Shown here piece after piece: positions 5,640-62,043 of a DNA stretch of 64,000 nucleotides. Numbering within the stretch: position 1 is the stretch's first letter; each line of letters begins with the position of its first letter. This stretch comes from Lampris incognitus. Taxonomy: Eukaryota > Chordata > Actinopteri > Lampriformes > Lampridae. The translations under genes and the position numbers were made by a program. Below the pieces are notes generated by a model. The model was not told the DNA's origin and searched no databases. It saw only the letters and a program-made list of their open reading frames with translations. The stretch is taken from NCBI RefSeq assembly GCF_029633865.1, contig NC_079212.1:83809172-83873171 (forward strand). Reading direction: 5' to 3'.

Positions 5640-8600
5640 CTAGTCATTTTCTGAGTCACTCCTGCTGTCACTGCTCTCAACTGTTGCAGTGTGTATCCTG
5701 CTGCATTTGGTTGCCAGTCCCTGGCAACGGCACCCTACGTAGCATGGAACTGCCTTCTTTGCACAGGAGCAGTTCTTCTGGCAGCCTTTGGCACATCCAC
5801 ATGAGATTGTCTTGTTCATCGACACAGGCCGGGCTGGCTGTATAGATGGAACCGGAACTGCATTTCCATTATCCAGAGACCATACAAATTCTGTGCATGA
5901 GGGAATTTCTGGTTTGGCGGTGTGTGCATTCTTCTTAATGATGGTTGCCAGAGCAGCCCTTTTCAGGTACAGGAGAAAGTCGTTCTCTGTTGGGTCGTAG
6001 TAGCTTTAAGAGCGTTGATCTGTTGTTCACGAACTTGTATGTTCTCAGTTTGCCCAGATCAGAATCCTCAAAGTGATCAGCTGTGGTTGTGTACACAGCT
6101 ATAGTGAGGTCTCGTGCCTGGTTGAGGAGGTCATCTGTTATGGCATCAGCGGGGTTCTCACCAAACTCTTCAAGTGCAGCTGTGTTCAGACTCATGCTGC
6201 TCTTGAACCATGCCTTCTTTCCAGTGAAATATGAGTAACTAGTGGTATCTCTACCACTCAGACTGTGAAGGTCCCAGTGCCACAACCATGTCATGTATAG
6301 GCAGGTATGCATTCTGGGCTGTTCTGACCCACAGCTCTGGTAGATTGCTGAGGTGCATTGCACCATAATACAGGCACATGGTAATGATATCGGTGTCATT
6401 GGCATGGATGACAACTCTGTCAACTCCTTCATTCTGGACACTGTAGAGGGTGTGGAGTATCATCCTAGTATCAGCCTCCAGAGCAGGAACATCCATAACA
6501 GACCCCTCTGTGAGTACCATACTCTTCGTCTCTTCTTTGAATCCACCACCCAGGTAGAGATGAGTTGGGCCAAGAGCAGGCTCCAGTTGCACATTCTCAT
6601 ACCATTTCTCACAAAGGAATCTCAGAAGGTTTGTTTTGTTAGCTGACACGGCAAAAAAAAAAAACTCCTTTGGATCAGAAGCTGTGTACTGCTCACTGAC
6701 TTCATATACTTTGGCTGGTTTTGATCAGGCAAATCTCTGTCCCTGCTCAGTTGACTTAAAGCTGGGTCCATTGTACCTGTCACAACAGAAGAGTATGATC
6801 TCAGTTCCGGCAGGCACATCATTCAACAGCAGGTTTTAGTATCACTCAGTGATGGTTCCAAATCTTTCACCTTTGTGAAAAGACCAGTGTCGTATGGCGC
6901 ACATAGCATCAATGACTGCTGCTGTCTTTTTGTCATCTTGAGGCAGATCGGGGTTGCTGGTCACTTTGGTCTCCTCTTTCAGGATCTTCACTAGGCATGC
7001 CTTGGTACCAGTTCTCATACTGCCATCTTCCTGGAAGAGGGATGGTGGAAAGTCTTTGCACTCGTGGTTGCCCCTGAAGTCAACAATGTTGAGTTCTCCA
7101 CCACTGGCAATGATCTGTGTCATACACAGAAGGGCAGTAACTTCATTGCTCTTGCCAGGTGCAGAAATTTTCCCTCCGGACTTCTTTGGTTTTGTGTTTT
7201 GTGTGTGGAAGGTGATAAGCTTCACAACACTTACCTTCTTCTGATCACTGGACAGTGACTCAGACAGTGCCTTCAGAACCAGTACTTTCACGCTCGTCAG
7301 GTTGTCCTTGACTGTGGAATCTGCACACTGTCCAGTTGATATGTTGATCAGGGATGGTGTGGCTGCTGTGAACGGGTTGGTCTCTACTGCTGTCATGACC
7401 TTGACTACCATCTCTGCATCCCTGGTGACACGACTCCAACCAGATTCATGGTGTGGGTTGGAGGAATGGAGGTGCAGCATAGACTTGAGCTCTGCAGAGA
7501 TAGCTACAGTGAGTGGTTTTGTGTAGGCCCACTTCATTCAGGCAGCAGGGTTGAGTGTAATGCCATCCAGACCACTTGCCTCCTTGACATCGGCATTATA
7601 AGTCTGCTCCAGAAGCATGTCAGGAGAGACACCATTGTGATTGCCATCTGCTCTCCTCCCAACAAATCCACTCGCCATCAGTGCTTCATGTACCTCTGGG
7701 GCTGTTTCTGGCAGTTTCTTCATCTCAGCCAAATACAGAGGCAAAGACTGCTGTCCGTATTTGTAGTGGCCTGCTGCAGTGAGGTAGGGTAGCATTCGTG
7801 CTGATTCACAGAGATGTCCTACCCAGTCACCTTCTCGCTGGTAGTAGATAAACCTGTGGAGAATGTTTGACATCTCCAGGAAGATTGACCAGAAAACTGC
7901 TGTTGGTTGCTCATTCAGTGATTCCTGGAAAAGCAACATCTGCTCTCACAGGACTGATAACTGTGGACGTGTCATCTGGATGATCTCTAACTTCTGAGTG
8001 GCAGTGGTGTGTTTGTCAAACAACATCTTCAAGATATTTTCTACCTGTGACTGCCAGTGTTCTGTTTCTCTGTCTGCTGCCCATGCCTCAAATGCTTCCC
8101 AGTACAGGCTTCACATGGCCTCACTGAGGATCTTGAGGGCATGTATCGTTTGGTAATAGTTAGCCTTCTTACTAAAAATCTTCTTGGCAGTCCCTTCCTG
8201 ACACAGACCAGCTGCAACAAGAAGATCCTCTGCACCTGCATCCCTGATGATCTTGAATTCATATGTAGCCTGATCTCCAGTGATGATAGTATATTTGTCT
8301 CCCCGTGCATGCAATGTCTTGACCAGCCATTTGGTCTCTTCTTTCGGGACAGCAGGATCAGTTGGAGATGCTGGGATGAGAGGAAGATAGCCAATGATGC
8401 TGACCTGTCTATGTGAGTGGAGGTCTGCACAGAAGGCAGAAAAGCCAGACAGTCCTGCTTCTGCATCTGGAGGCGCATCCAACGACTGTGAAGTTGTAAC
8501 CATTCTTGCTTGGTACCACACAGGCAACAGGTCTTCAGCCGTACCATCTGAGGAAGTCACCAGACTCTCCAGCTTCTCAATGTGCTCAAGTGACCTGGAC

Positions 8601-21616: not shown

Positions 21617-21966
21617 CAGTGGCGCCCCCAAGGGGTGGCCAGGGGTGGCCACGGCCATCCTGATATTATCCCTGCCCCCCCCCGCTGGCCCCCCCAGCCA
21701 CGACTCGCATATGCAGAATATGCTTCTGATTATGCATAATATGCTTCTATCTGATATCTTACATTAGGTGTTGTTCATTTAAATCAATAATGTATATTTT
21801 TCTTAACTCTCATATTGACAGTTTTCCACTAGCCTATACAGTATACTACAACAGCAGCATAAAATTCCCCAAATTCAGTCATGGCTTTTGGTTTTGGTGT
21901 GCCACCCCAAGATTTTCAGTGGCCCCATTTGGCCACCCCTATGAAACATTTCTGGGGGCGCCACTG
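21617..21966 (+). mobile_element. hAT-type MITE, copy A
   Basis: A 350-bp element begins CAGTGGCGCCCCCA and ends in the inverse TGGGGGCGCCACTG. It is flanked by ATTATGCT (21609-21616) and ATTATGCA (21967-21974), an 8-bp duplication with one mismatch. It has no coding capacity. A close relative in the opposite orientation is at 27895-28231. Confidence 0.9.
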
Positions 21967-25824: not shown

Positions 25825-28800
25825 ATGAGCACGTTAACACTGCTGCTGCTGCTGCTCGTCTTGGCTGTTGCTTCTGAAACTGCAGCGAGTGAGTACATCT
25901 TCCAACTGTTTGCCAAACTTGGATCAAACTTGTGGTTGTGTGTTTGCTTTGCTTATTGTCCAATTCTGTGACAATTTCCTCAATTTCAGTTTTCTAAATG
26001 CAATTATGTCCGATAAGCCCACGTCAGAAGAGTCATGCTCTCGTTGCACTTCCATTCTGAGCATGCCTTCTGAGGCCAGCACCGCAGCTCGGCACATTTC
26101 TGCCAGAGGCTGCGTGGCAGATTGCTTTTAAGTGCTGTGACTGATGGGAACAAACTCTGCAACATCACAATCGCTCCTCATTTGCAATGGTGCATAGGAA
26201 TCTTCATCTTCGTGTTTCTTTGTGTGATGTTTTTGTACTCAAGTAATTGAACTGTAAATGAATTGATCTGTGATTTTACGTTAATTTCACGGCCAAAAAA
26301 AATCTATTTGCTGCAATAAATCAGTTTTTGAAAAAAATCTACACCAGCCAAATATTTGCTTGGTCATATAATTCAAAGTTCATTGCATTTGTTTCCCTTT
26401 TTGCCGATGATGTGGGACTATGTGGCTTTTAGCTTATTGCTCAGTGGGATGTGGAGTGATGGAATGTAAAGAAAGTACTCTGACATAACTGTCACAAGTT
26501 CCCAAATCACTGGCTGAGTGAGAGACTCCCCCAACGCGTGAGAGCTCTTATTCATCCAGTTGGGATTACTGGTGTTGGTGCTCAGCTGATAGTCACATGA
26601 AAAGGATTGAGGGAGATTTTAGAGATCGTGTGACTCACCCTGCCTAGAACCCCAACATTCCTTACAACCTCTTGTCTCCACAGAAAAAATGGATCTGCTA
26701 TAACTTCCATCATTATACTCATCAAAGCAGTCCTCTTGATGGTTATGCATAAAATCTGACTCTATTTTTGTAAATTCTTACATCTTTACTTCTACCAGAT
26801 TGCAACTTCAGGTGTCGTTTGGCAGACTGGAACATGGTCTGGAACTGGAATAGGGGGGAAGTCCTGTTAAGTACATCAGCAAAGACAGCTTGAGTAAATC
26901 TCGCAGCTGATGGATGTGATTTTGAGGGAAATATATAGGAATACAAATTTTAACAACTTTTGATGCTTTTTTTATGCAACTTTTAATACTGAATATGCAA
27001 AGAAAATCTGTCTCGTCGTTAAATCAAATTACCCGTTGTTGTTTCACTGGAAACAGAAAACCTAATTTTCACTCACCGTTGGAAGTTTAGGAGGATATAA
27101 AGAATAATAGGATGTTTCTGATGTTTGTAGTGCTTTATTTTTTGCAGAACCTAAAAGCCAGTTCACACACTACCGTTCATGGAACTCACGTATGTATCCT
27201 GTGTGGAAAGATGGAGATTCCAGATTCAGGGACTGCTGGTCTGGTGAGTTTCTACAACTCTCACTTGCTGCAGGTGTGACATTAACTTGGTAGCAAACTC
27301 CCCAAACTCACACAGTGTGCAACCTTGTCTCCAGGTGGGCAAGTGACCTTTGACATCAGAAACGATGCACCTGTTCTGACTGGAGCCAAAGCCACCTTCA
27401 ACATTGACCTTCGTTTCCCACCAAACCAGACAGTGCTGGCTGATGGGCAGGTGGTCTGGGCCCGTAACTGCAGTGTTGATGGTACCCCAACTTCTCAAAC
27501 CGTTTTACCCCACTGACCCTTCTTAACAGCTGTGCTCGTCCCGTGTTTAATTGTAAAAGGCTGACGCATGTTCCCCGGCCCTGCTGGTTTTCAGGGAGAC
27601 GGTATCAAGAGGGTCAGGCTGTCTACCAGGACGCTGACTGGAATGGAGTCTTCCCCGATGGCTCATCATTCAACAGGGGGCAGAACAAGAAGCCCCAGTA
27701 CGTGTTCGTCTGGAAGACATGGGGTAATTATTCTTTTGAGATTTTTGAGTCTCTTTGAAACTCAGGTTGCCCCTCTATTACATTATCGCATTCTTATCAT
27801 TATCGCATTACAGTTGGTTTGTTTTTGGCTTTTTGTAACATACAATGAGTTGTAATGAATTTTGTGTGCATTTTAAGTTTTTTGTCCTCTCTGGCAGTGG
27901 CGCCCCCAGAAATGTTTCATAGGGGGGGCCAAATGGGGCCACTGAAAATCTTGGGGTGGCACACCAAAACCAAAAGCCATGACTGAATTTCAGGAATTCT
28001 ATGCTGCTGTTGTAGTATACTGTATAGGCTAGTTGAAAACTGTCAACATGAGAGTTAAGAAACATATACATTATGATTTAAATGAACAGCACCTAATGTA
28101 AGATATCAGAGAGAAGCATATTATGCATAATCAGATGCATATGCGATTCGTGGCTGGGGGGGCAGCGGGGGGGCAGGGATAGTATCGGGGTGGCCGTGGC
28201 CACCCCTGGCCACCCCTTGGGGGCGCCACTGCTCTCTGGTGTCTAATATAAAATTCGTGTTAGATGAGGTGGTGGTTTATATCACATTATGCCTCACCGT
28301 CTTCCATGTTTTACTCTGAGTGGGTCATTCCCAATCACGTGACTTTTCATGGCCAACGAACAGCGCCGCCATGTTGGAGAGCAGCCAGGCCTTAGCGACC
28401 ACCGCTAAACTGGAGTTCTCACCGTCGAGCTGCGTTTACAAGAACGACCTTTTAAGGGAAAGTGGGACAAACGTAGGGGAATAAAACACGGCCGTTGTGA
28501 CCCACTCTGCGAAAAGCAGTTTGCGAAATACATTTGACAAAGTTCTGGCCTAACAGAAATTAACCACAGTAAACATGGACCCACGACAGCTGTAGTGTAC
28601 GACTCAAGCCGCGGGACACGTTCTGCCCCTCTGACTGTCCAGAACACGTCCAGCGACACGGATCCATATGCCGCCGCCCCCCAACATGGCGGCTGCGCTG
28701 CCGTCACGTCATATGTGACGTAACATGAGACTAACCCCATACCTTCCAGTTAAGATCCATATTAATAAAAGCAAGAATGGCAATGTAACCGGTTATTTTC

Positions 28801-31800
28801 TTGCCCGGTGCGGGATTCGATACGAGGTGTACTGCACCACAAGGCGACATCACTAACTGCACCACAAAGCGACGTCACTAACTGCTCGGCTAAAGAGTCA
28901 GGCCCGTTAGCTAGGGACTAACGTGTCATATTAGTAGTTTACAGTAATAATCAAAATATCATCATGAACTTACTACTACTACTGTATTCATCATCACCAT
29001 CATCATCATCATCACCACCACCACCACGTTTTTTATTAGCACTATTGTATTTGTAGTGTCATGTTTTATGCAGTTTACATTGAGATTGGTTGGATGTTTC
29101 CATAATAGCTTCCCAAAAACCCTTCAGTGTTGACAAAGTCCATCCTGCATGTATTTACCCAACTTCCCCTCGGGGATGAATAAAGTATTCTGATTCTGGT
29201 TTAGGTCGATATCGATAAAGATGATGTGGGCTTTTCGAAGGTGATCATCTAAGTTTCCACCCATTTTGTACTTTTAGTTTCAATCATACTGTAGCGAATT
29301 CGGGGGACAACGGAGCGACCGTAAGGCCATCGGAAGCGTAGGCGCCCTGAGGCGTGAAGGAGCTGATATGCTTAAGCGCGGGGTTCGCTTCCCGAAGGAG
29401 GGGGGGTAGTGTAACGTGCATGGATAACAAGACACGCTGGCTCGCGGGTCTGACCTTTTAGTCGAGCGGTTAGCGATGTCTCCTGCGGTGCGGCGATACG
29501 GGTTCGCTTCCCGGCCGCGGCAGTTCCTGTGGTTGCGTTGTCCCCCGAATTCGCTACAATACTGTCTAAAGTGAATTTGACCGTGTGGCAGTTTTGTTGT
29601 GTGACGTCTCACCCATGATGACGAGGCAAAAAATAAATGAATAAACCACTGTTCGGTAAGTGAGGAACTTGAGTATGAGACTGTGCATAAGGCACAGTGG
29701 CTGATATTGCCGGATATTGACAATACCTTTACCAAACTACAGACACAAACAGAAAAATCAACATGTTTTTTCGGTTAACCATCTGTTGTCTTACGGGTCG
29801 AAATGACCCATAAGAGTGTGTAACGGCAGGGAAAAGACTCTAAATGATCTTTATTCAACCTGAAATGTGATGACGTTTCCTAGAGGGACCCCAAATTTAG
29901 CAACAGTGAAACACTGTTTTGTTCATATTTCCACGAAAGCCGTACACCAATAGGGTACTAAGATTGTCTTAGGGTCACGTGTGACCCTAAGACATGTGTG
30001 GGTCATGTGACCCTATAAAAACGAGGGGTGTCCACTGATTAAATGCAGTCTTTCTGCACCGTGAATAGGGAAAATCCAGATAGTCACACAGTTTGTGATG
30101 AATGACAGGTTGTTTCTTCGTGCAAAATAGAGTTGGGGTTTAAAATTAAATTACGTGGCTTTAATGTAGAGGTTTAATGAAGGCGGGTCATAGATGACAC
30201 TTAAGACAAGGGCAGTATACACAATGTATGGACAACACAAGGGTTAACGCAACTGAAATTCACTTCAAAAACTGTGAAAATGTTATTGCTCTATCCAAGG
30301 TCGTTACTGGCAGGTGGCAGACGGGCCCTCCTCCTCGCTCACTATCGGTACAGACAACGTCCCCCTGGGCTCCTACAACATGGAGGTGGTCATCTACCAC
30401 TGCCGTGGCCAGGACAAGTTCATTCCTCTTGGCTACGCGTCCACAGTGTTCTCGATCACAGGTGACCACATCAAACCATTCTTTGACTGGAGTATTAAAA
30501 TAAGAATAAATGATTCTGATTCTGATCTGATGATATCAGCTAAACATCTGTTGTCTCTACCATCAGACCAAATTCCTTTCACTATATTACTTGCCCAAGT
30601 CAACGATGTCAACCAGAATGACCAGAGCTTCATCCAGAACCGAGCTATAGCTTTCAGTGTCAAGCTACACGACCCCAGCCAGTACCTAAGTGACTCAGAT
30701 ATCACCTTCAACTGGGACTTCGGCGACAACAGTGGAACTTTGATCTCAAGGGAGCATACTGTCACACACACATACCTCTCACTGGGCACCTACAAGCCTC
30801 AGGTGGTCCTAACGGCAAGCATCCCGAATGGCTGTGCAAACCCCACTGCTGGTGAGATTTGATTTTCTTTTGTTTTGTTTTGTTCATACATTATCATATT
30901 ACATCTGCTTGATTACTATCTATCAAAGGCTACAAAGATGCTAAACATCTACAGATGCTGAAAAGACCGAAAAGATGCTAGCAATTCTTCTTACCTATCT
31001 CCAGTTGTTCCAGTGGACGCCTCTGCTGTTCCAGAGGTAGTTGTGATTGCCTCCACCCCGGGAGCAGCCCTGACAGCCGACCCACCGGCACCAAACCAGG
31101 AGGGAGGTACCACTGCTCCTGATGTGCCTGTTTCTGAATCTGTTCCAATTGATGACCTCTCACTTGCTGCTTCTGTGCAGCCTGCCAAGGGAGCAGCAGG
31201 CGTGGATGATGGAGCTGCAGTAGCTAATCTGGATGCGGAGGGGGTGGAAGTGGCTTCGGTGGCCCCTGCGGTAGAGGATGCAGCAGCTGTTACAGTGGCA
31301 GTGGTCCCTGCCATCGTCGCCACCGTGGCAGACACAGCTGCTGCGCCAGGGGAGTTAGATGTTATTGCAGACGAGCCCAGCACAGCAGTGGCAGATTCGG
31401 CCACTGCCGCTTCTGTTATCCCTGCAACCGAAGAGCCAGCTGAGGTCAACGAAGCTGCTACAGACGCAAATGTGGCTGTTATCGACACTGCTGTTTCAGG
31501 CAACCCTGTTGCAGATGCGGAGGAAGCCACAGTTGACCTTGGAGCCACAGCCTCTCCGGAGGTCCCCGATGCTGCCACTGTTGCTCCCTCAGCAGAGGTC
31601 GCTGTAGTGCAGGAGCTTGATGCTGCTGCAGAGGTTGTCCAGGCTGAGGCAGAAGTTCCAGTTGAGAATACTGTTGTTCCTGCTTCCACCGAGAACGCAG
31701 CTGTTGCCGAGGCAGCCGCTGCTGACCCTGCTGCTGATGCTGAAACAGAAGTGGTGGAAACAGTCAACGAGGTTCCACCTGCTGCAGGTTGACCTTTGAT

Positions 31801-37090: not shown

Positions 37091-42368
<5,278 letters not shown>

Positions 42369-43024: not shown

Positions 43025-44648
43025 CAGTGGCTTGCAAAAGTATTCATACCCCTTGAACTTTTCCACATTTTGTCACATTTCGACCACAAACATAAATATA
43101 TTTTATTGGAATTTTATGTGAAAGACCAACACAAAGTGGCACACAATTGTGAAGTACAAAGAAAATTATACATGATTTAAAAAAAAAAAAAATTAAAACT
43201 GAAAAGTGCGGTATGCAAAAGTATTCAGCCCCCCTGAGTCAATACTTTGTGGAACCGCCTTTTGCTGCAATTACAGCTGCAAGTCTTTTGGGGTATGTCT
43301 CTACCAGCTTTGCACATCTAGAGACTGAAATTTTTGCCCATTCTTCTTTGCAAAACAGCTCAAGCTCAGTCAGATTAGATGGAGAGCGTTTGTGAGCGGC
43401 AGTTTTCAGATCTTGCCACAGATTCTCAGTTGGATTTAGGTCTGGACTTTGACTGGGCCATTCTAACACATGAATATTTTTTGTTTTAAACCTTTCCATT
43501 GTAGCCCGGGCTTTATGTTTAGGGTCGTTTTCCTGCTGGAAGGTGAACCTCCGCCCCAGTCTCAAGTCTTTTGCAGACTCCAACAGGTTTTCTTCCAAGA
43601 TTGCACTGTATTTGGCTCCATCCATCTTCCCATCAACTCTGACCATCTTCCCTGTCCCTGCTGAAGAGAAGCACCACCAGAGCATGATGCTGCCACCACC
43701 ATGTTTGACAGTGGGGATGGTGTGTTCAGAGTGATGTGCAGTGTTAGTTTCCCGCCACACATAGCGTTTTGCATTTAGGCCAAAAAGTTGAATTTTGGTC
43801 TCATCTGACCAGAGCACCTTCTTCCACATGTTTGCTGTGTCCCCACATGGCTTCTGGCAAACTGCAAACGGGACTTCTTATGGTTTTCTTTTAACAATGG
43901 CTTTCTTCTTGCCACTCTTCCATAAAGGCCAGATTTGTGCAGTGCACGGCCAATAGTTGTCCTGTGGACAGATTCCCCCACCTGAGCTGTGGATCTCTGC
44001 AGTTCGTCCAGAGTCACCATGGGCCTCTTGGCTGCATCTCTGATCAGTGCTCTCCTTGTTCGACCTGTAAGTTTAGGTGGACGGCCGTGTCTTGGTAGGT
44101 TTGCGGTTGTGCCATACTCTTTCCATTTCCGGATGATGGATTGAACAGTGCTCCGTGAGATGTTCAAAGCTTGGGTAATCTTTTTATAGCCTAACCCTGC
44201 TTTAAACTTCTCCACAACTTTATCCCTGACCTGTCTGGTGTGTTCCTTGGACTTCATGATGCTGTTTGCACCCCAATATTCTCTTAACAAACCTCTGAGG
44301 CCGTCACAGAACAGCTGTATTTGTACTGAGATTGGATTACACACAGGTTGATTCTATTTAGTCATTAGGTCAACATTCGATCATTCAGCAATCATCAGGC
44401 AACTTCTGAAGGCAGTTGGTTGCACTCAGAGAAAAGGGGGCTGAATACTTTTGCACACCGCACTTTTCCTTTTTTTATTTGTAAAATTTTTTTTAAATCA
44501 TGTATAATTTTCTTTGTACTTCACAATTGTGTGCCACTTTGTGTTGGTCTTTCACATAAAATTCCAATAAAATATATTTATGTTTGTGGTCATAACATGA
44601 CAAAATGTGGAAAAGTTCAAGGGGTATGAATACTTTTGCAAGCCACTG
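43025..44648 (-). mobile_element. Tc1-type transposon, full length
   Basis: A 1624-bp element is bounded by TA dinucleotides (43023-43024 and 44649-44650). It has inverted ends of about 155 bp, starting CAGTGGCTTGCAAAAGTATT. One transposase region lies inside. Both ends are complete, so it inserted as a whole element. Confidence 0.95.
43239..44344 (-). pseudogene. Tc1 transposase, single frameshift
   Basis: Cut-and-paste DD34E transposase of the Tc1/mariner superfamily. The N-terminal frame (43775-44344) holds the paired DNA-binding domain, with KITQALNISRSTVQSIIRKW and the GRPPKL linker. The C-terminal frame (43239-43829) holds the catalytic motifs VLWSDET, QENDPKHKA and SPDLNPTENLW. The two frames overlap and meet near 43837-43850, where one base appears lost. 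Otherwise the gene looks complete (roughly 340 aa). The reading frame starts inside the left end of the element, upstream of the usual MKSKE-like Met. Confidence 0.9.
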
Positions 44649-48685: not shown

Positions 48686-49262
48686 AAATGAAAAAAATAC
48701 ATAGATGCATTACTACATGAAAAAATACACATTCATTATTACATGAAAATATACATAGATTCAATACTACATGAAAATACATATTCATTATTCCGTGAAA
48801 AAAATACATAGATTCATCATTACATGAAAAAAATACATAGATTCATTATTACATGAAACTACATAGATTCATTATTACATGAAAATACATAGATTCATTA
48901 CTACATGAAAAAAATATAGATTCATTATTACATGAAAATACATAGATTCATTACATGAAACTACATAGATTCATTATTACATGAAAATATATAGATTCAT
49001 TACTACATCAAAATACATAGATTCATTACTACATGAAAATACATAGATTCATTACATGAAAAAAATACATATTCATTACATGAAACTACATAGATTCATT
49101 ATTACATGAAAATACATAGATTCATTACTACATGAAAATACACAGATTCATTACTACATGAAAATACAGATTCGTCATTACATGAAAATACATAGATTCA
49201 TTATTACATGAAAATACATAGATTCGTTACTACATGAACAAATACGGATTCACTATTACATG
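48686..49262. repeat. 26-bp AT-rich minisatellite
   Basis: About 22 degenerate copies of ATTCATTATTACATGAAA followed by ATACATAG. Several units have lost 6-10 nt. Confidence 0.93.
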
Positions 49263-49439
49263 TAAAAGGCTGCTTGTTCACCTCCCCTGCTTATAGCAGA
49301 ACTCACATGTACTTAGTGGCTAACTCCACCCTGAGCACTGGTTAACAATAAAATGCCGTTTCTATTCTTCAAACATGACTAATATAGAATACTCTTTAGT
49401 AGTCATTTTGTACATACATACAAATGAAATGTACTCTGC

Positions 49440-49560
49440 ATTTAAGCCATGCTAGCCATGTAGCACCTGGGTACGAACACCAGTTATTTCTTGCTGTTGC
49501 CTTGCTCAGGGACACAGGCAGGAGTATCAACCCTAACAGATCATCAGCAACCACATCAAA
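49440..49560. mobile_element. Non-LTR 3' module fragment
   Basis: TTGCCTTGCTCAGGGACACA and GGCAGGAGTATCAACCCTAA match the fragments at 36560-36670 and 55360-55420. Confidence 0.55.
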
Positions 49561-49857
49561 AAGAATGTATAAACATTTATTGAGAAGGTATCACATATCA
49601 TATCTCATGGTGCTAAGCTTTAGGCTAAACAATGCCATATATTTTTACTAAACATGTTGACATGAGTAGTAAACCATTTCTTTGTTTGCTGAATTGAAAT
49701 CTAGCTTTTTAAAATGATCAGAGTGTCAAACCAGACTGGACAAAGTGGGTGAGGACACATCATTTGTCCCATCATCAGTCTCAAATCACTTGCAGGTGTT
49801 GGCTTTCCCTGCCGGTGCTGCAGCCTGAACTCAGCTGCTGCTGATCATCTGCAAGCG

Positions 49858-50556
49858 AGTATAAACGCAGTAGTTGTGGGGTATAAAAGCAGTAGCTATG
49901 GACTATAAACGCAGTAGCTGTGGAGTATAAAAGCAGTAGTTGTGGAGTATAAAAGTAGTAGCTGTGGAGTATAAAAGCAGTAGCTGTGAAGTATAAAGGC
50001 AGTAGTTGTGGGTATAAAAACAGTAGTTTTGGAGTATAAAAGCAGTAGTTGTGGGTATAAAAGCAGTAGCTGTTGAGTATAAAAGCAGTAGCTGTGGAGT
50101 ATAAAAGCAGTAGTTGTGGGGTATAAAGCAGTAGCTGTGGAGTATAAAAGCAGTAGCTGTCGAGTATAAAAGCAGTAGCTGTCGAGTATAAAAGCAGTAG
50201 CTGTGGAGTATAAAAGCAGTAGCTGTGGAGTATAAAAGCAGTAGTTGTGGAGTATAAAGCAGTAGCTGTGGGATATGAAAGCAGTAGCTGTGGGGTATAA
50301 AGCAGTAGCTGTGGGATATGAAAGCAGTAGCTGTGGGGTATAAAGGCAGTAGTTGTGGGTATAAAAACAGTAGTTTTGGAGTATAAAAGCAGTAGCTGTG
50401 GGTATAAAAGCTGTAGCTGTGGAATATAAAAGCAGTAGTTGTGGAGTATAAAAGCAATAGTTGTGGAATATAAAAGCAGTTGTTGTGGAGTATAAAAGCA
50501 GTTGTTGTGGACTATAAAAGCAGTAGCTGTGGAGTATAAAAGCAGTAGCTGTAGAG
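49858..50556. repeat. 22-bp minisatellite, left part
   Basis: About 32 copies of GTATAAAAGCAGTAGCTGTG plus GA, with small indels. The array is interrupted at 50557 by a hAT transposon and resumes at 53090. Confidence 0.97.
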
Positions 50557-53089
50557 CAGGGGTGCCCACAATTTTTTGACTCGTGAGCTACTTTTAAAAT
50601 GACCAGGTAAAATGATCTACTCATATTAAAAATAATAATAAAAATACTCAATACATGTTTTACATATATATGAACATTTATATGCAGTGTGTGTATTTAT
50701 ATACATGTTGTGTTACATATACAGTATTGCAATGGATTTGCATTTATATTGAACCTTACACAGGCAATAATCATACCAAGCATTTGCTACTACACTATGT
50801 TGAAATTGCATCACTGCAAGAACCTTTACAGCTGTGGTAAATAGATTTGTGATCTCTACCTCTCTACTCTGAGGATGACCTGCACTGGAGGGAGTCAGAC
50901 AGGGTTGCACAGTTCGGACAGTAGCTGCTGTTAGCCAACCTCAAGCAGGCCTCCAAATGATCATCTGTCATGGTGGAACGGTATTTGGACTTGACAATCT
51001 TCATGTGAGAAAAGGCTGACTCACACAAATAAGTAGAGCCGAATAATGCCGTCAAGGAGGTTGCGCATTTCCTCATGTTTGGGTACTTGTCCTCTGTAAG
51101 TAAGTTCCAAAACTCTCCATGCGCCCTGGACTTAAGCTGAATGTCAGCCTGTACTGTCAGCATCTCATCCTCCACTGCAGACAAGTTCAGGTGAAACAGT
51201 GTTGCCATTTTTGAGGCGAGGGAATCCACCTCTGTATCTTCCCCAAATGGGTAGCACATAAATGTAGCGATTGGCTCAAGCAAAGCAAAGTCTTGAAACC
51301 GTTTGTCAAAGTCTGACCAGACATTTTCAATCTGCTCTGTGTAGCGTGCACTGTCAAGTTGTGCACACGCCCTCCCTTGCTTCTCCAGCTCTGCTGCGAG
51401 GTTTCGCAAGTTTCCCAAATCACGGCGCTGCAACTTTGAGGACAGAAGTTGCATTTTCCGTTTGAAAGCGTTAACTGAGCTGATCATGTTTACCACGCTT
51501 TTGTCTTTTCCTTGCAGCTCTAAATTAAGCTCGTTCAACATGTTGGTTAAATCAGTTAAAAACGCCAAGTCTAGCAGCCACTGATTGTCATTAAGTTGCT
51601 TGTGTTCCGCATGTTTAGTGATAAGGAGAAACTCCTTAATCTCCGGACAGAGCTCTCGAAATCTCTGCAAGAATCTCCCTCTACTAAGCCATCTCACGTC
51701 AGTGTGTAGCAAGAGGTCAGAGTATTTACAGTCGGCCTCTTCCAAATGTGTACCAAACAACTGTCTTTGAACAGACCTCGCTCGAGTAGAACAGGCGATT
51801 TTGGTTGCCACATCCATGATCTCTTTCATGTTTAGCATTTTTGCGCATAATGCTTGTTGGTGTATTATGCAATGGTAATTAAGGAAGTCAGGGAAATCAT
51901 CGTCCTCCCTGCACTTGGCAATAAATCCATTCGAGCGGCCCACCATAGCAGGCGCACCGTCCGTGGCGATTGACACCAGTTTACACACTGGGAGCTGGAT
52001 TTTATCCATAACGTTTTTGAAGATCTGAAAAATGTCCTCTCCCCACGTGTGTTCCTTCATGGGTAGTATTGTTAACAACTCCTCTTTTGCGGTCATATCT
52101 TGAAACACCACCCAAATGAAAATGCACAATTGGGCCATATCACTTATGTCCGTAGACTCGTCCAATTGTAGTGAGAAACACTCGCAGTCCATGATGTCCC
52201 TCCAAAGCTGCTGTGTCAAATCATCGCCCATCACTTCACAGCGCCTTGTGATGGAATTGCTTGATAACTGGGGAGCTTTGATTGAAGATATTATTTCTGA
52301 TTTGTTTTTAAAGTCCCGAAACAACGAATCTGCTGCCTGAAGGAAGGCCTCTTTTATCATCTCTCCATCTTGGAAGGCTTTCTTATGCTTAATGATGGAG
52401 TGACTCACCCGTAAAGATGCTTCGGTGGCTGCCTTTGCCTTTGAATGCGGCTGCGTGAAAAGTGACTGCTGGGCAATTAACTGCGATTTTAGTTCCCTCA
52501 CCTTTCCCTTTCTCAGCTCGCTTTTCGGAGGGAAGTCATTGTCACAGTTTTTATGAACAGTTCGAAAGTGCCTCTCCACATTTCCTTTCTTTGGGATAGC
52601 AATGCTAGACTGACAGAGGAGACAAACGCATTTGGAATAAGACATGGTGAAAAAAAAGTCCTCCTCCCATTCCACATGGAAATGGTACGTTTTTTGTTTC
52701 TTGCTAGGTCCGGCTCCCCCACGCATTTTTGTTTTGTTTAACTTTTTAGTAGAATTTTTTTTTAGAGAGTTGAACTAGCTAGCTCGATACAGTTCTGCAT
52801 TAGCTCACGTTGTGGGCATGTGAACTTCAAGGTACGTTAGAGAAGGGCTCTGGTTGTTATGGTAACCTAATGTAACAAAGTTTTAGGTTCCGCTCTAGAA
52901 TCTTTGGTTTTAGGCAACAGCAGACTGGCCGTCCTTTACGTCAATCAAAAGGCAAATGCCAAATGGAGGACAGATGATAGGCTAATGTCTTGGGAAAAAA
53001 AAGAAGTTTTTTTGGAATGTCATGGAGATCTACCAGCACTGCCTTCACGATCTACTGGTCGATCGCGATCGACGTAGTGGGCACCCCTG
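50557..53089 (-). mobile_element. Complete hAT transposon inside a minisatellite
   Basis: A 2533-bp element with perfect 13-bp inverted ends CAGGGGTGCCCAC / GTGGGCACCCCTG and a perfect 8-bp target-site duplication CTGTAGAG (50549-50556 and 53090-53097). The duplication is itself part of the host minisatellite. The right subterminal region has the palindrome GGTCGATCGCGATCGAC. It carries one long uninterrupted transposase gene on the minus strand. Confidence 0.97.
50864..52726 (-). CDS. hAT-family transposase, intact 620-aa open frame
   Basis: Cut-and-paste transposase of the hAT superfamily, of the kind from which vertebrate ZBED/SCAND3/GTF2IRD2-like genes arose. A single open frame without stops or frameshifts starts at ATG 52724-52726, which is followed by a short basic stretch (SKKQK). 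N-terminal BED-type zinc finger at residues about 34-61 (CLLC, then HFRTVH). Catalytic core with FSLQLDESTD and IATDGAPAMVGRSNG (candidate acidic residues), an IHQQALCAK motif, and an RWLSRGRFLQRF stretch. The C-terminal hAT dimerisation region reads LFGSTYLCESAFSHMKIVKS followed by YRSTMTDDHLEACLRLA. It lies wholly between the inverted ends, about 310 bp from the left end and 360 bp from the right. The complete ends, exact duplication and open frame suggest recent insertion. Activity is not shown. Confidence 0.93.
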   Translation of the reverse strand: MRGGAGPSKKQKTYHFHVEWEEDFFFTMSYSKCVCLLCQSSIAIPKKGNVERHFRTVHKNCDNDFPPKSELRKGKVRELKSQLIAQQSLFTQPHSKAKAATEASLRVSHSIIKHKKAFQDGEMIKEAFLQAADSLFRDFKNKSEIISSIKAPQLSSNSITRRCEVMGDDLTQQLWRDIMDCECFSLQLDESTDISDMAQLCIFIWVVFQDMTAKEELLTILPMKEHTWGEDIFQIFKNVMDKIQLPVCKLVSIATDGAPAMVGRSNGFIAKCREDDDFPDFLNYHCIIHQQALCAKMLNMKEIMDVATKIACSTRARSVQRQLFGTHLEEADCKYSDLLLHTDVRWLSRGRFLQRFRELCPEIKEFLLITKHAEHKQLNDNQWLLDLAFLTDLTNMLNELNLELQGKDKSVVNMISSVNAFKRKMQLLSSKLQRRDLGNLRNLAAELEKQGRACAQLDSARYTEQIENVWSDFDKRFQDFALLEPIATFMCYPFGEDTEVDSLASKMATLFHLNLSAVEDEMLTVQADIQLKSRAHGEFWNLLTEDKYPNMRKCATSLTALFGSTYLCESAFSHMKIVKSKYRSTMTDDHLEACLRLANSSYCPNCATLSDSLQCRSSSE

Positions 53090-53487
53090 CTGTAGAGTAT
53101 AAAAGCAGTAGTTGTGGGGTATAAAGCAGTAGCTGTGGGATATGAAAGCAGTAGCTGTGGGGTATAAAGCAGTAGTTGTGGGGTATAAAGCAGTAGCTGT
53201 GGGATATGAAAGCAGTAGCTGTGGGGTATAACAGCAGTAGCTGTGGGGTATAAAGCAGTAGCTGTGGGGTATAACAGCAGTAGCTGTGGGATATAACAGC
53301 AGTAGCTGTGGGGTATAAAGCAGTAGCTGTGGGGTATAAAGCAGTAGCTGTGAGATATGAAAGCAGTAGCTGTGGGGTATAAAGCAGTAGCTCTGGGGTA
53401 TAACAGCAGTAACTCTGGGGTATAAAGCAGTAGCTGTGGGGTATAACAGCAGTAGCTCTGGGGTATAAAGCAGTAGCTGTGGGGTTG
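53090..53487. repeat. 22-bp minisatellite, right part
   Basis: Continuation of the array at 49858-50556, with units such as GTATAAAGCAGTAGCTGTGG and GTATAACAGCAGTAGC. Units here are shorter (20-21 bp) than in the left part. Confidence 0.95.
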
Positions 53488-53629
53488 TTCGCTGGCTGTA
53501 GGGCATCAGGGTGTATATGTGTGCACGACACGTTCATTCATTTGTTAGTTCAAGCTCAATTGTCATCAGTTGAGTTTTTGTCAGTTACTAACGGTTTGTT
53601 TTTTTGTTTGCTTTGTTCATTCTTACATG

Positions 53630-54115
53630 TTACATGTAGCTCCACACTGTAAATAATTTGTATTATATGGAAACAGTTTGAGTTTACATGTAGCTCCACG
53701 CTGTAAATAATTTGTATTATATGGAAACAGTTTGAGTTTACATGTAGCCCCACGCTGTAAATAATTTGTATTATATGGAAGCAGTTTGAGTTTACATGTA
53801 GCCCCACGCTGTAAATAATTTGTATTATATGGAAACAGTTTGAGTTGACATGTAGCTCCACGCTGTAAATAATTTGTATTATATGGAAACAGTTTGAGTT
53901 TGCATGTAGCTCCACGCTGTAAATAATTTGTATTATATGGAAACAGTTTGAGTTTACATGTAGCTCCACGCTGTAAATAATTTGTATTATATGGAAACAG
54001 TTTTTAGTTTACATGTAGCCCCACGCTGTAAATAATTTGTATTATATGGAAACAGTTTGAGTTTACATGTAGCGCCATGCTGTAAATAATTTGTATTATA
54101 TAGAAGCATTTTGAA
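53630..54115. repeat. 54-bp minisatellite
   Basis: Nine copies of a 54-bp unit with TACATGTAGCTCCACGCTGT and AAATAATTTGTATTATATGG. An exact multiple of three leaves it open on the minus strand. I treat that frame as fortuitous. Confidence 0.95.
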
Positions 54116-54629
54116 TTCGCCTCCTACATTTTAGCCACTCAGGCCAGGTTTCCCCACACAGACTTCACATTACGCTCCAAACAGCTTTCTTCACCTGGTT
54201 CTAGACGAGACAGATAACCACATCCTTCCATAGATGTACTTCAATAGTACTTCAGGAGGCTGGGGTACCCATGTTGTCAGGTACTCCATAGATGTACTGC
54301 ATTAGTACTCCAGGAGACTGGGGTACTCATGTTGTCAGGTACTTCAGTTTCCACTCAGGCAGGTCTGAGACCTGGAATAACAGGTGCATTTGCAGAACAG
54401 AAAACCAGCAGGACAGATGGATCCTGAGGACCGGACTGAGAACCACTGATGTATTCCACAACTCTTGGTCTTACATGGATAATCACAACAGTCCTGCCTC
54501 ATCAGCAGCCACCAACATCATATATCATTTCTGGTCATAGACCTCTGACTGCTCGGTGCTTGTTGCTTCAGCAGTACTGGGAGGGAGCAGACAGAACTTG
54601 TGCAGGAGTAAGTCACAACACAGACTGAC

Positions 54630-54732
<103 letters not shown>

Positions 54733-54802
54733 CATGAACACAGAAATTTTCACAATCAACCACTGTTGTCCATTCAAAGAGGGAGGTTGCTATCAGGTAT
54801 GT

Positions 54803-54985
54803 CAAATCAAAATCAAATCAAATCAATTTTATTTGTATAGCCCAATATCACAAATTACAAATTTGCCTCAGTGGGCTTAACAGCAACACAACATCCTGTC
54901 CTTAGACCCTCTCATCGGATAAGGAACAACTCCCTAAAAAACCCTTTAACATGGAGAAACAATAGGAAGAAACCTCATGTTGCAG
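54803..54985 (-). mobile_element. LINE 3' UTR fragment
   Basis: The minus strand repeats the 3' UTR at about 1490-1685: AACACAACATCCTGTCCTTA, CTCATCGGATAAGGAACAAC and a terminal TTATTTGTATAGCCCAATAT on the plus strand. It shows the same LINE family left at least three tails in the window. Confidence 0.8.
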
Positions 54986-55359
54986 TGGTCACATGATGCA
55001 CTGCAGTGCAGAGGAGAGGCTGACATCACTGCAGCAAAACCCCACATGGCAGCAGCCTAATGGGCAGGAAGGAGAGGGAGGGCGGAGGAGCAGGGAATGA
55101 AGGATGGAGAAAGCTGTTTCTGAAAGAAGCATGAGCGTTAAATCAACTCTCAGTGGTAAACAGTAGTACATGAAGTTCATGGATGACAACTGCCTCTTCC
55201 CAAAAGCTCTGTGTTGCATTACGTAGTGTAAAGCAGGAAGCCCCTTGCTCTGTCATTGTGTTCTGACATGGAATGTGTTGTCAGCATGGAACCATCCTAT
55301 TGTCCAGGAGCAGAGGGCAGCTGCAGCACCCGGCACCAACTCCACCTCTTCTTTCCCCT

Positions 55360-55530
55360 GCCTTGCTCAGGGGCACAGGCAGGAGTATTAACCCTAACAT
55401 GCATGTCTTTTTGATGGTGGGAGGAAACCCATGCAGACACGGGGAGAACATGCAAACTCCACACAGAAAGGACCTGGGACAGCCTGGGGTTGGAACCCGG
55501 GAATGTCTTGCCACTGTGCCACCATATATA
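55360..55530 (-). mobile_element. Non-LTR 3' module fragment
   Basis: CTTGCTCAGGGGCACAGGCA, TTTTTGATGGTGGGAGGAAA, GGGGAGAACATGCAAACTCC and GCCACTGTGCCACC. It runs directly into the TATC microsatellite. Confidence 0.7.
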
Positions 55531-55556
55531 CCTATCTATATCTATCTATCTATCTA

Positions 55557-55651
<95 letters not shown>

Positions 55652-55730
55652 ATCTATCTATCTATGTCTATATCTATCTATATTTATCTATCTATAGCTA
55701 TCTATCTATATCTATCTATCTATCTATCTA

Positions 55731-55806
<76 letters not shown>
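55528..55806. repeat. (TATC)n-(TA)n-(GT)n compound microsatellite
   Basis: About 200 nt of mainly TATC units pass into TA and then GT dinucleotides. Confidence 0.97.
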
Positions 55807-55808
<2 letters not shown>

Positions 55809-55899
55809 AAACTGTGTTAAATGAAACCGTCAACGGAAGGGAAAGTGCTCAACAAACAAGGAGCAACATGATCCAGTGATTCAAGTAATTTATTTAAAT

Positions 55900-57095
55900 C
55901 AGGAACACTTGTCCTTTCACTTCATACACTGGTGTAGGTGAAATGATACGAAATGCTGTTTCCCCCAACTCACAACAACACAACACAAACACAACAACAC
56001 ACCCAAAAACTACGAGAACGCACACACCCAAACCAACACACACCCAAACCAGCACACACCAACACACATACCCAAACTAACGCACATACCCAAACCAACA
56101 CACATACCCCAACTAACGCACACACCCAAACTAACACACACATTCAAACTAACACACATATCCAAACTAACACACATACACAAACTAACACACATACCCA
56201 AACCAACACACACACCCAAACCAACACACACCAACACACACACCCAAACTAACACACATACCCAAACTAACACACATACCCAAAACTAACACACATACCC
56301 AAAACTAACACACACACCCAAAACTAACACACACACCCAAACTAACACGCATACCCAAACTAACACACACATCCAAGCTAACACACACACCCATCCAAGC
56401 TAACACACACACCCAAACTAACACACATATCCAAACTAACACACATCCAAAACTAACACACATATATTCAAACTAACACACACATCCTAACTAACACACA
56501 TATCCAAACTAACACACATACCCAAAACTTACACACATACCCAAAACTAACACACATACCCAAACTTAACACACATACCCAAACTTAACACACATACCCA
56601 AAACTAACACACATACCCAAAACTAACACACACACCAAACTAACACCCATACCCAAACTAACACCCATACCCAAAACTAACACACATACCCAAAACTAGC
56701 ACACATATCCAAACTAACACACATACCCAAAACTAACACACATATCTACACTAACACACATACCCAAACTAACACACATATCCAAACTAACACACATACC
56801 CAAACTAACACACATATCCAAACTAACACACATACCCAAACTAACACACACATCCAAACTAACACACATATCCAAACTAAACAAAAAAACACTGTCCAAG
56901 GGAACGAACGCCAGCCAGGACGACTGTGGGAACCAGCGGTCTACATGGGCTAGCAGTTAGCTTAGCCTGCCCCGCTGTCAGACCGCCCACGGCGTTTTCT
57001 CCTCGGGCGCAGCTCAAGGCAGGGGCCATGGTCCCCGGGCCGACCGGACGAAGCAGACCGAGCTGTCCAAGCCGACACAGACGGCACAAGCCTGT
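55900..57095 (-). mobile_element. Interspersed repeat, copy 2, expanded internally
   Basis: Same repeat as in the cdk2 intron 3 insert, here on the minus strand. The shared right part (56890-57095) has CTGTCCAAGGGAACGAACGC and GCTAGCAGTTAGCTTAGCCT. The shared left part (about 55900-55980) has TGAAATGATACGAAATGCTG. Between them the 18-bp doublet of copy 1 has become a long tandem array. Confidence 0.75.
56010..56880. repeat. 18-19 bp minisatellite inside an interspersed repeat
   Basis: About 48 degenerate copies of ACTAACACACATACCCAA. On the minus strand the unit reads TAGTTTGGGTATGTGTGT. The copy of the host repeat in cdk2 intron 3 has only two such units, at 16114-16149. Confidence 0.92.
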
Positions 57096-60426: not shown

Positions 60427-62043
60427 CACTACCGTTCAAAAGTTTGGGATCACCCAAACAATTTTGTGTTTTCCATGAAAAGTCACACTTATTCACCACC
60501 ATATGTTGTGAAATGAATAGAAAATAGAGTCAAGACATTGACAAGGTTAGAAATAATGATTCGTATTTGAAATAAGATTTTTTTTACATCAAACTTTGCT
60601 TTTGTCAAAGAATCCTCCATTTGCAGCAATTACAGCATTGCAGACCTTTGGCATTCTAGCTGTTAATTTGTTGAGGTAATCTGGAGAAATTGCACCCCAC
60701 GCTTCCAGAAGCAGCTCCCACAAGTTGGATTGGTTGGATGGGCACTTCTTGCGTACCATACGGTCAAGCTGCTCCCACAACAGCTCAATGGGGTTCAGAT
60801 CTGGTGACTGTGCTGGCCACTCCATTACCGATAGAATACCAGCTGCCTGCTTCTGCTCTAAATAGTTCTTGCACAATTTGGAGGTGTGTTTAGGGTCATT
60901 GTCCTGTTGTAGGATGAAATTGGCTCCAATCAAGCGCTGTCCACTGGGTATGGCATGGCGTTGCAAAATGGAGTGATAGCCTTCCTTATTCAGAATCCCT
61001 TTTACCCTGTACAAATCTCCCACCTTACCAGCACCAAAGCAACCCCAGACCATCACATTACCTCCACCATGCTTAACAGATGGCGTCAGGCATTCTTCCA
61101 GCATCTTTTCATTTGTTCTGCGTCTCACAAACGTTCTTCTTTGTGATCCAAACACCTCAAACTTGGATTCATCCGTCCACAACACTTTTTCCAGTCTTCC
61201 TCTGTCCAATGTCTGTGTTCTTTTGCCCATCTTAATCTTTTTCTTTTATTGGTCAGTCTCAGATATGGCTTTTTCTTTGCCACTCTGCCCTGAAGCCCAG
61301 AATCCCGCAGCCGCCTCTTCACTGTAGATGTTGACACTGGTGTTTTGCGGGTACTATTTAATGAAGATGCCAGTTGGGGACCCGTGAGGCGTCTGTTTCT
61401 CAAACTAGAGACTCTAATGTACTTATCTTCTTGCTCAGTTGTGCAACGCGGCCTCCCACTTCTTTTTCTACTCTGGTTAGAGCCTGTTTGTGCTGTCCTC
61501 TGAAGGGAGTAGTACACACCGGTGTAGGAAATCTTCAATTTCTTAGCAATTTCTCGCATGGAATAGCCTTCATTTCTAAGAACAAGAATAGATTGTCGAG
61601 TTTCAGATGAACGTTCTCTTTTTCTGGCCATTTTGAGCGTTTAATTGACCCCACAAATGTGATGCTCCAGAAACTCAATCTGCTCAAAGGAAGGTCAGTT
61701 TTGTAGCTTCTGTAACGAGCTAAACTGTTTTCAGATGTGTGAACATGATTGCACAAGGGTTTTCTAATCATCAATTAGCCTTCTGAGCCAATGAGCAAAC
61801 ACATTGTACCATTAGAACACTGGAGTGATAGTTGCTTGAAATGGGCCTCTATACACCTATGTAGATATTGCACCAAAAACCAGACATTTGCAGCTAGAAT
61901 AGTCATTTACCACATTAGCAATGTAAAGAGTGTATTTCTTTAAAGTTAAGACTAGTTTAAAGTTATCTTCATTGAAAAGTACAGTGCTTTTCCTTCAAAA
62001 ATATGGACATTTCAATGTGATCCCAAACTTTTGAACGGTAGTG
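60427..62043 (-). mobile_element. Tc1-type transposon, second family, full length
   Basis: A 1617-bp element flanked by TA (60425-60426 and 62044-62045), with ends CACTACCGTTCAAAAGTTTG and the inverse CAAACTTTTGAACGGTAGTG. It differs clearly from the Tc1 element at 43025-44648. It sits at the broken right end of the Gypsy remnant. Confidence 0.95.
60589..61631 (-). pseudogene. Tc1 transposase, single frameshift
   Basis: DD34E transposase. The N-terminal frame (61125-61631) begins MARKRERSSETRQSILVLRN and holds the helix-turn-helix MREIAKKLKISYTGVYYSL and the GRPRCTTEQED linker. The C-terminal frame (60589-61230) holds VLWTDES, QQDNDPKHTS and SPDLNPIELLW. The frames meet at an A run (T run on the plus strand, about 61185-61190), consistent with loss of one base. 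Length is otherwise normal (about 340 aa). Confidence 0.9.

Follow-up and report, generated by a model that had tools for sequence, protein, structure and literature searches.

A structurally complete hAT-type DNA transposon with an uninterrupted transposase frame inside a minisatellite of Lampris incognitus

The stretch analysed here, hereafter called the window, comprises 64,000 nucleotides of contig NC_079212.1 of Lampris incognitus (assembly GCF_029633865.1, positions 83,809,172 to 83,873,171 of the forward strand). It contains a 2,533-bp hAT element (50557-53089 of the window) embedded in tandem repeats, which raises the question of whether this element is a complete transposon that landed in an existing minisatellite, and whether it is young or still able to move. 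We are highly confident that it is a single, full-length hAT DNA transposon of the autonomous type, from the group of animal hATs often misnamed GTF2IRD2-like (hAT-6/Charlie/Buster-like). The element and its borders are composed as follows:

50549-50556, plus strand: target-site duplication, left copy, CTGTAGAG
50557-50569, plus strand: terminal inverted repeat, first copy, CAGGGGTGCCCAC, 13 bp
50570-50863, no strand assigned: non-coding stretch from the left end to the stop-codon side of the frame
50864-52726, minus strand: transposase, one uninterrupted frame of 620 codons
52727-53076, no strand assigned: non-coding stretch 5' of the start codon
53077-53089, minus strand: terminal inverted repeat, second copy, 13 bp
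53090-53097, plus strand: target-site duplication, right copy, CTGTAGAG

Comparison of the two ends showed that the 13-bp inverted repeats are perfect and that the sequences differ from base 14 on, while the flanks beside the element ends are identical over 8 bp and not beyond. An 8-bp target-site duplication and short terminal inverted repeats, as expected of hAT elements, are thus both present, and nothing was found that speaks against the completeness of the element. A preliminary description of this DNA had reported inverted ends identical over 13 bp and an 8-bp duplication without mismatch, and both were borne out, the coordinates 50549-53097 being exact. The promoter presumably lies in the stretch 5' of the start codon (52727-53076).

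The element is flanked on both sides by minisatellite repeats:

49857-50556, no strand assigned: left minisatellite part, 32.1 copies of a 22-bp unit with some 21-bp units, the last bases being the target duplicate
53098-53485, no strand assigned: right minisatellite part, 21- and 22-bp units

In a tandem array an 8-bp match could be mere periodicity, and the element would then have come another way, such as within a duplicated block; the match was therefore checked against the array units. 8-mers do recur in the array, and 4.9% of pairs matched when same-phase 8-mers of the left side (31) and the right side (17) were compared. However, a unit ending in GTAGAG was found once among the 50 array units listed (32 left and 18 right, the right-hand CTGTAGAG copy being excluded from the 18), namely in the left-junction unit, and the shared 8-mer thus carries a base absent from all the others. 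The two further matches to CTGTAGAG in the window, at 6441 and 18763, both lie outside the two arrays. Furthermore, when the element and one CTGTAGAG copy are removed, the 22-bp units run on in register, CTGTAGAG being followed directly by TATAAAAG. Because its base occurs in no other listed unit and the joined flanks restore the register, the 8-bp flanking match is a true target-site duplication, and an origin through periodicity is extremely improbable.

These borders are consistent with a simple sequence of events. A transposase, encoded by the element itself or by a sister copy, would have excised the element from another place; the element would have been joined to staggered cuts made 8 bp apart within a repeat unit reading CTGTAGAG, and repair of the gaps would have generated the 8-bp duplication. 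Both the cut-and-paste chemistry, which is borrowed from knowledge of hAT elements, and the source copy are presumed here.

As the preliminary description had proposed, the same array lies on both sides and the insertion is later than array formation. Its claim that the unit length is 22 bp on the left and 20-21 bp on the right was wrong: the right side consists of 21- and 22-bp units, and the left side is not purely 22 bp. The 21-bp units amount to 7 of 32 on the left and 8 of 18 on the right (Fisher p = 0.12), the pair of 21 and 22 bp seen on the right is also present on the left, twice in succession (50253-50338), and an exact run of 57 bp is common to both halves (50252-50308 and 53119-53175). 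As both halves contain 21-bp units and have the 57-bp run in common, the heterogeneity of the array can predate the insertion. Some variants are one-sided, such as units starting with TATAACAG (5 of 18 right, 0 of 32 left), and a gradient in one array before the insertion explains them as well as later drift does. The separate drift of the half-arrays that had been suggested is thus unsupported. Outside the element, larger tandem arrays occupy about 11% of the window, and an insertion into an array is therefore not surprising. We also observed that the surroundings of the element (48694-56880, approximately 8 kb) hold clustered tandem arrays with units of 26, 22, 54, 58, and 18 bp as well as simple repeats.

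The 620-amino-acid (aa) protein encoded by the frame has the following parts, numbered by residue:

19-60: zinc finger
D189, D256, and E569: catalytic triad
286-289: CxxH motif, reading CIIH
345-346: RW motif
537-595: hAT dimerisation region, PF05699

The Pfam search placed PF05699 at the C-terminal side with 30 bits (cut-off 21.4). Structure prediction gave the Hermes transposase as the best match, with an RNase H-like core and a helical insertion. The protein therefore has the characteristics of the hAT superfamily, namely the dimerisation region, the DDE triad, the CxxH and RW motifs, and, as a prediction, a Hermes-type core, and the catalytic core and dimerisation region named in the preliminary description are present, the core fold as a prediction. 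The CxxH motif and the choice of the DDE residues follow what we take to be their arrangement in Hermes. Pfam assigned the finger to the Spin-doc type (29.9 bits, cut-off 27.3) and reported no BED model for the transposase at E up to 1; the finger spacing, C-x2-C-x14-H-x4-H (C35, C38, H53, and H58), is presumably BED-like. Of the 620-codon frame with BED finger described earlier, the frame and the finger hold, and the BED assignment is not backed by Pfam. The DDE and RW residues are named for hAT transposases in the available part of PMC10641963. The transposase is presumed to be functional.

An intact frame could also belong to a host gene domesticated from a hAT transposase, a reading favoured by the GTF2IRD2-like or ZBED5-like gene annotation of several relatives. 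A homologue search with an E-value limit of 0.001 yielded 1464 proteins; scoring was confined to the 7989 candidates with the most words in common, and 120 of the matches were listed. The three closest among the matches listed show 82, 79, and 77% identity across 99-100% of the length, the nearest one with an organism name is from sea bass (77%), and none of the 120 rows bears a mark identifying it as the protein of the window itself. Six of the best 14 of the 1464 relatives carry an organism name; all six are from ray-finned fish, and three are labelled GTF2IRD2-like or 2A-like. However, the accessible part of PMC10641963 describes such labels as a widespread misannotation of hAT elements, caused by the hAT-derived C-terminus of mammalian GTF2IRD2, and Pfam reported no GTF2I repeat in the transposase studied here. 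Moreover, all ten lgn-marked rows in the best 20 lie on contigs of 2339-2532 bp, approximately the element length, which fits collapsed repeats, though transcripts could do likewise. Both inverted ends of the element have also been kept, and its target duplication within the minisatellite is perfect; a domesticated gene would have lost these features. Domestication is therefore very unlikely, and a transposon copy is the preferred explanation.

For the phylogeny, 61 of the 120 listed homologues were selected by hand for their nearly complete length (591-637 aa, with one of 690), and this alignment omits the shorter rows and some full-length rows. The tree was built by a quick method with SH-aLRT as the only support; it placed the transposase in an 11-row set with a support of 100, including sea bass and stickleback proteins. 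These neighbours suggest that the host is most likely a bony fish. In addition, a protein attributed by its name to the bryozoan Watersipora subatra (P0019, 64% identical) was nested among fish proteins in a supported set, and horizontal transfer or contamination is possible for it.

Given that the transposon reading is preferred, a sharper version of it, compatible with the first, is that the element is young and still active, with a working protein and near-identical copies elsewhere in the host beside other flanks. The frame is intact, the ends and the duplication are perfect, and the element is better kept than the two Tc1-like copies of the window, each of which is spread over two frames. 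Neutral decay of the frame was simulated with assumed values (transition bias of 4, CpG transitions 5 times faster, and either no indels or 1 indel per 10 substitutions). At 0.5, 1, 1.5, and 2% divergence, the simulated probability of an intact frame was 0.34, 0.12, 0.04, and 0.01 with indels, and 0.69, 0.49, 0.36, and 0.26 without. The insertion is recent enough for the frame to be without stop or frameshift and, under the simulation with 1 indel per 10 substitutions, probably corresponds to less than about 1-1.5% neutral divergence, a rough upper bound to be read with caution as the element was chosen for its intact frame.

Several results weigh against youth or present function. No relative nearer than 82% was found among the matches listed, no second copy of the element was found within the 64-kb window, and DUF4371 scored under its Pfam cut-off in the transposase. 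The transposase deviates at five of 116 highly conserved residues (R205W, M206V, L319V, R322Q, and F440L), compared with 0 of 112 in the nearest relative, and the share of such changes is equal or lower in 42 of 61 relatives. There are also 25 residues that deviate where the ten nearest rows agree, each of those rows itself deviating at 1 to 16. The conserved-site changes per branch length were 39 per unit versus 30 in the ten nearest relatives (p = 0.58), and these changes are therefore no proof of decay. The CpG observed/expected ratio of the element is 0.60, a value as high or higher being found in 14 of 62 sliding stretches of the window, some of them overlapping the element; as this is within the range of the window, composition is no sign of youth. 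Taken together, a young and perhaps active element is plausible, and the full claim of youth, activity, a working protein, and near-identical host copies is a tentative possibility, somewhat less probable than its contrary. The still broader proposal of a currently active autonomous Buster-like hAT of vertebrates that has recently spread in its fish host, and possibly passed between distant animals in former times, as the place of the bryozoan-named protein in the tree might suggest, is rather unlikely.

The element thus belongs to a known kind of transposon that is common in fish; it is well preserved and complete in structure, and nothing found departs from known hAT features. Intact complete vertebrate hAT copies are candidates for living transposons and tools, and an insertion into tandem repeats allows their evolution to be followed from before the event to after it; for either purpose, other copies or other individuals are required. 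A single copy mainly adds a clear case of the hAT kind that annotation pipelines name a transcription factor. If the broader proposal of an active Buster-like hAT held, this copy could serve as a transposition vector and would mark a datable point in the minisatellite.

Other features of the window were also recorded. Two short elements of 350 bp (21617-21966) and 337 bp (27895-28231), in opposite orientation and 92.6% identical, both have the ends CAGTGGCGCCCCC in inverted orientation and look like a hAT-type family of miniature inverted-repeat transposable elements. The 337-bp element has CCAGAGAG on both flanks (minus-strand reading), and the flanks of the 350-bp element are ATTATGCT and ATTATGCA, with a 7/8 match. 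The Tc1-like transposase copies lie at 43239-44344 and 60589-61631, with DDE_3 in the C-terminal piece. At 30314-31792, frames with a PKD domain are followed by an Ala/Val/Pro/Glu-rich frame without Pfam match, which together presumably resemble PMEL (premelanosome protein). A tubulin-like coding frame with Tubulin and Tubulin_C domains, which we take to be of the alpha type, lies at 37297-38244.

Among known systems, membership of the element in the hAT superfamily is settled. The Hermes transposase (Ac family of hAT) is the best match to the predicted fold, but it is 14% identical to the transposase of the element, whose finger, in contrast to that of Hermes, scored as Spin-doc type. The target CTGTAGAG fits nTnnnnAn, which we take to be the consensus of the Ac family, and also nnnTAnnn; the latter fit is weak evidence for the Buster family, as one site decides nothing because 13% of array 8-mers carry a central TA. 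In the parts of PMC3517528 and PMC3499496 at hand, nnnTAnnn is the target consensus of Buster, a family including TcBuster, Mar, Myotis-hAT1, and hAT5_DR, and the former also places Mar near a Xenopus protein of the GTF2IRD2-like type.

Mammalian GTF2IRD2 has a Charlie8-like hAT transposase as its C-terminal part, according to the portion of PMC10641963 seen, whereas the element has its own inverted ends and no reported GTF2I repeat. The same portion assigns autonomous hAT status to 28 sequences of reptiles, fish, and amphibians. The transposase is homologous to fish GTF2IRD2-like entries, and its protein is at most 82% identical to any match listed. With hAT-6 and the fish hATs annotated as GTF2IRD2-like or 2A-like, as far as that portion of PMC10641963 describes them, the element has in common the annotation name, complete ends, a target duplication, the DDE and RW residues, and an intact frame.
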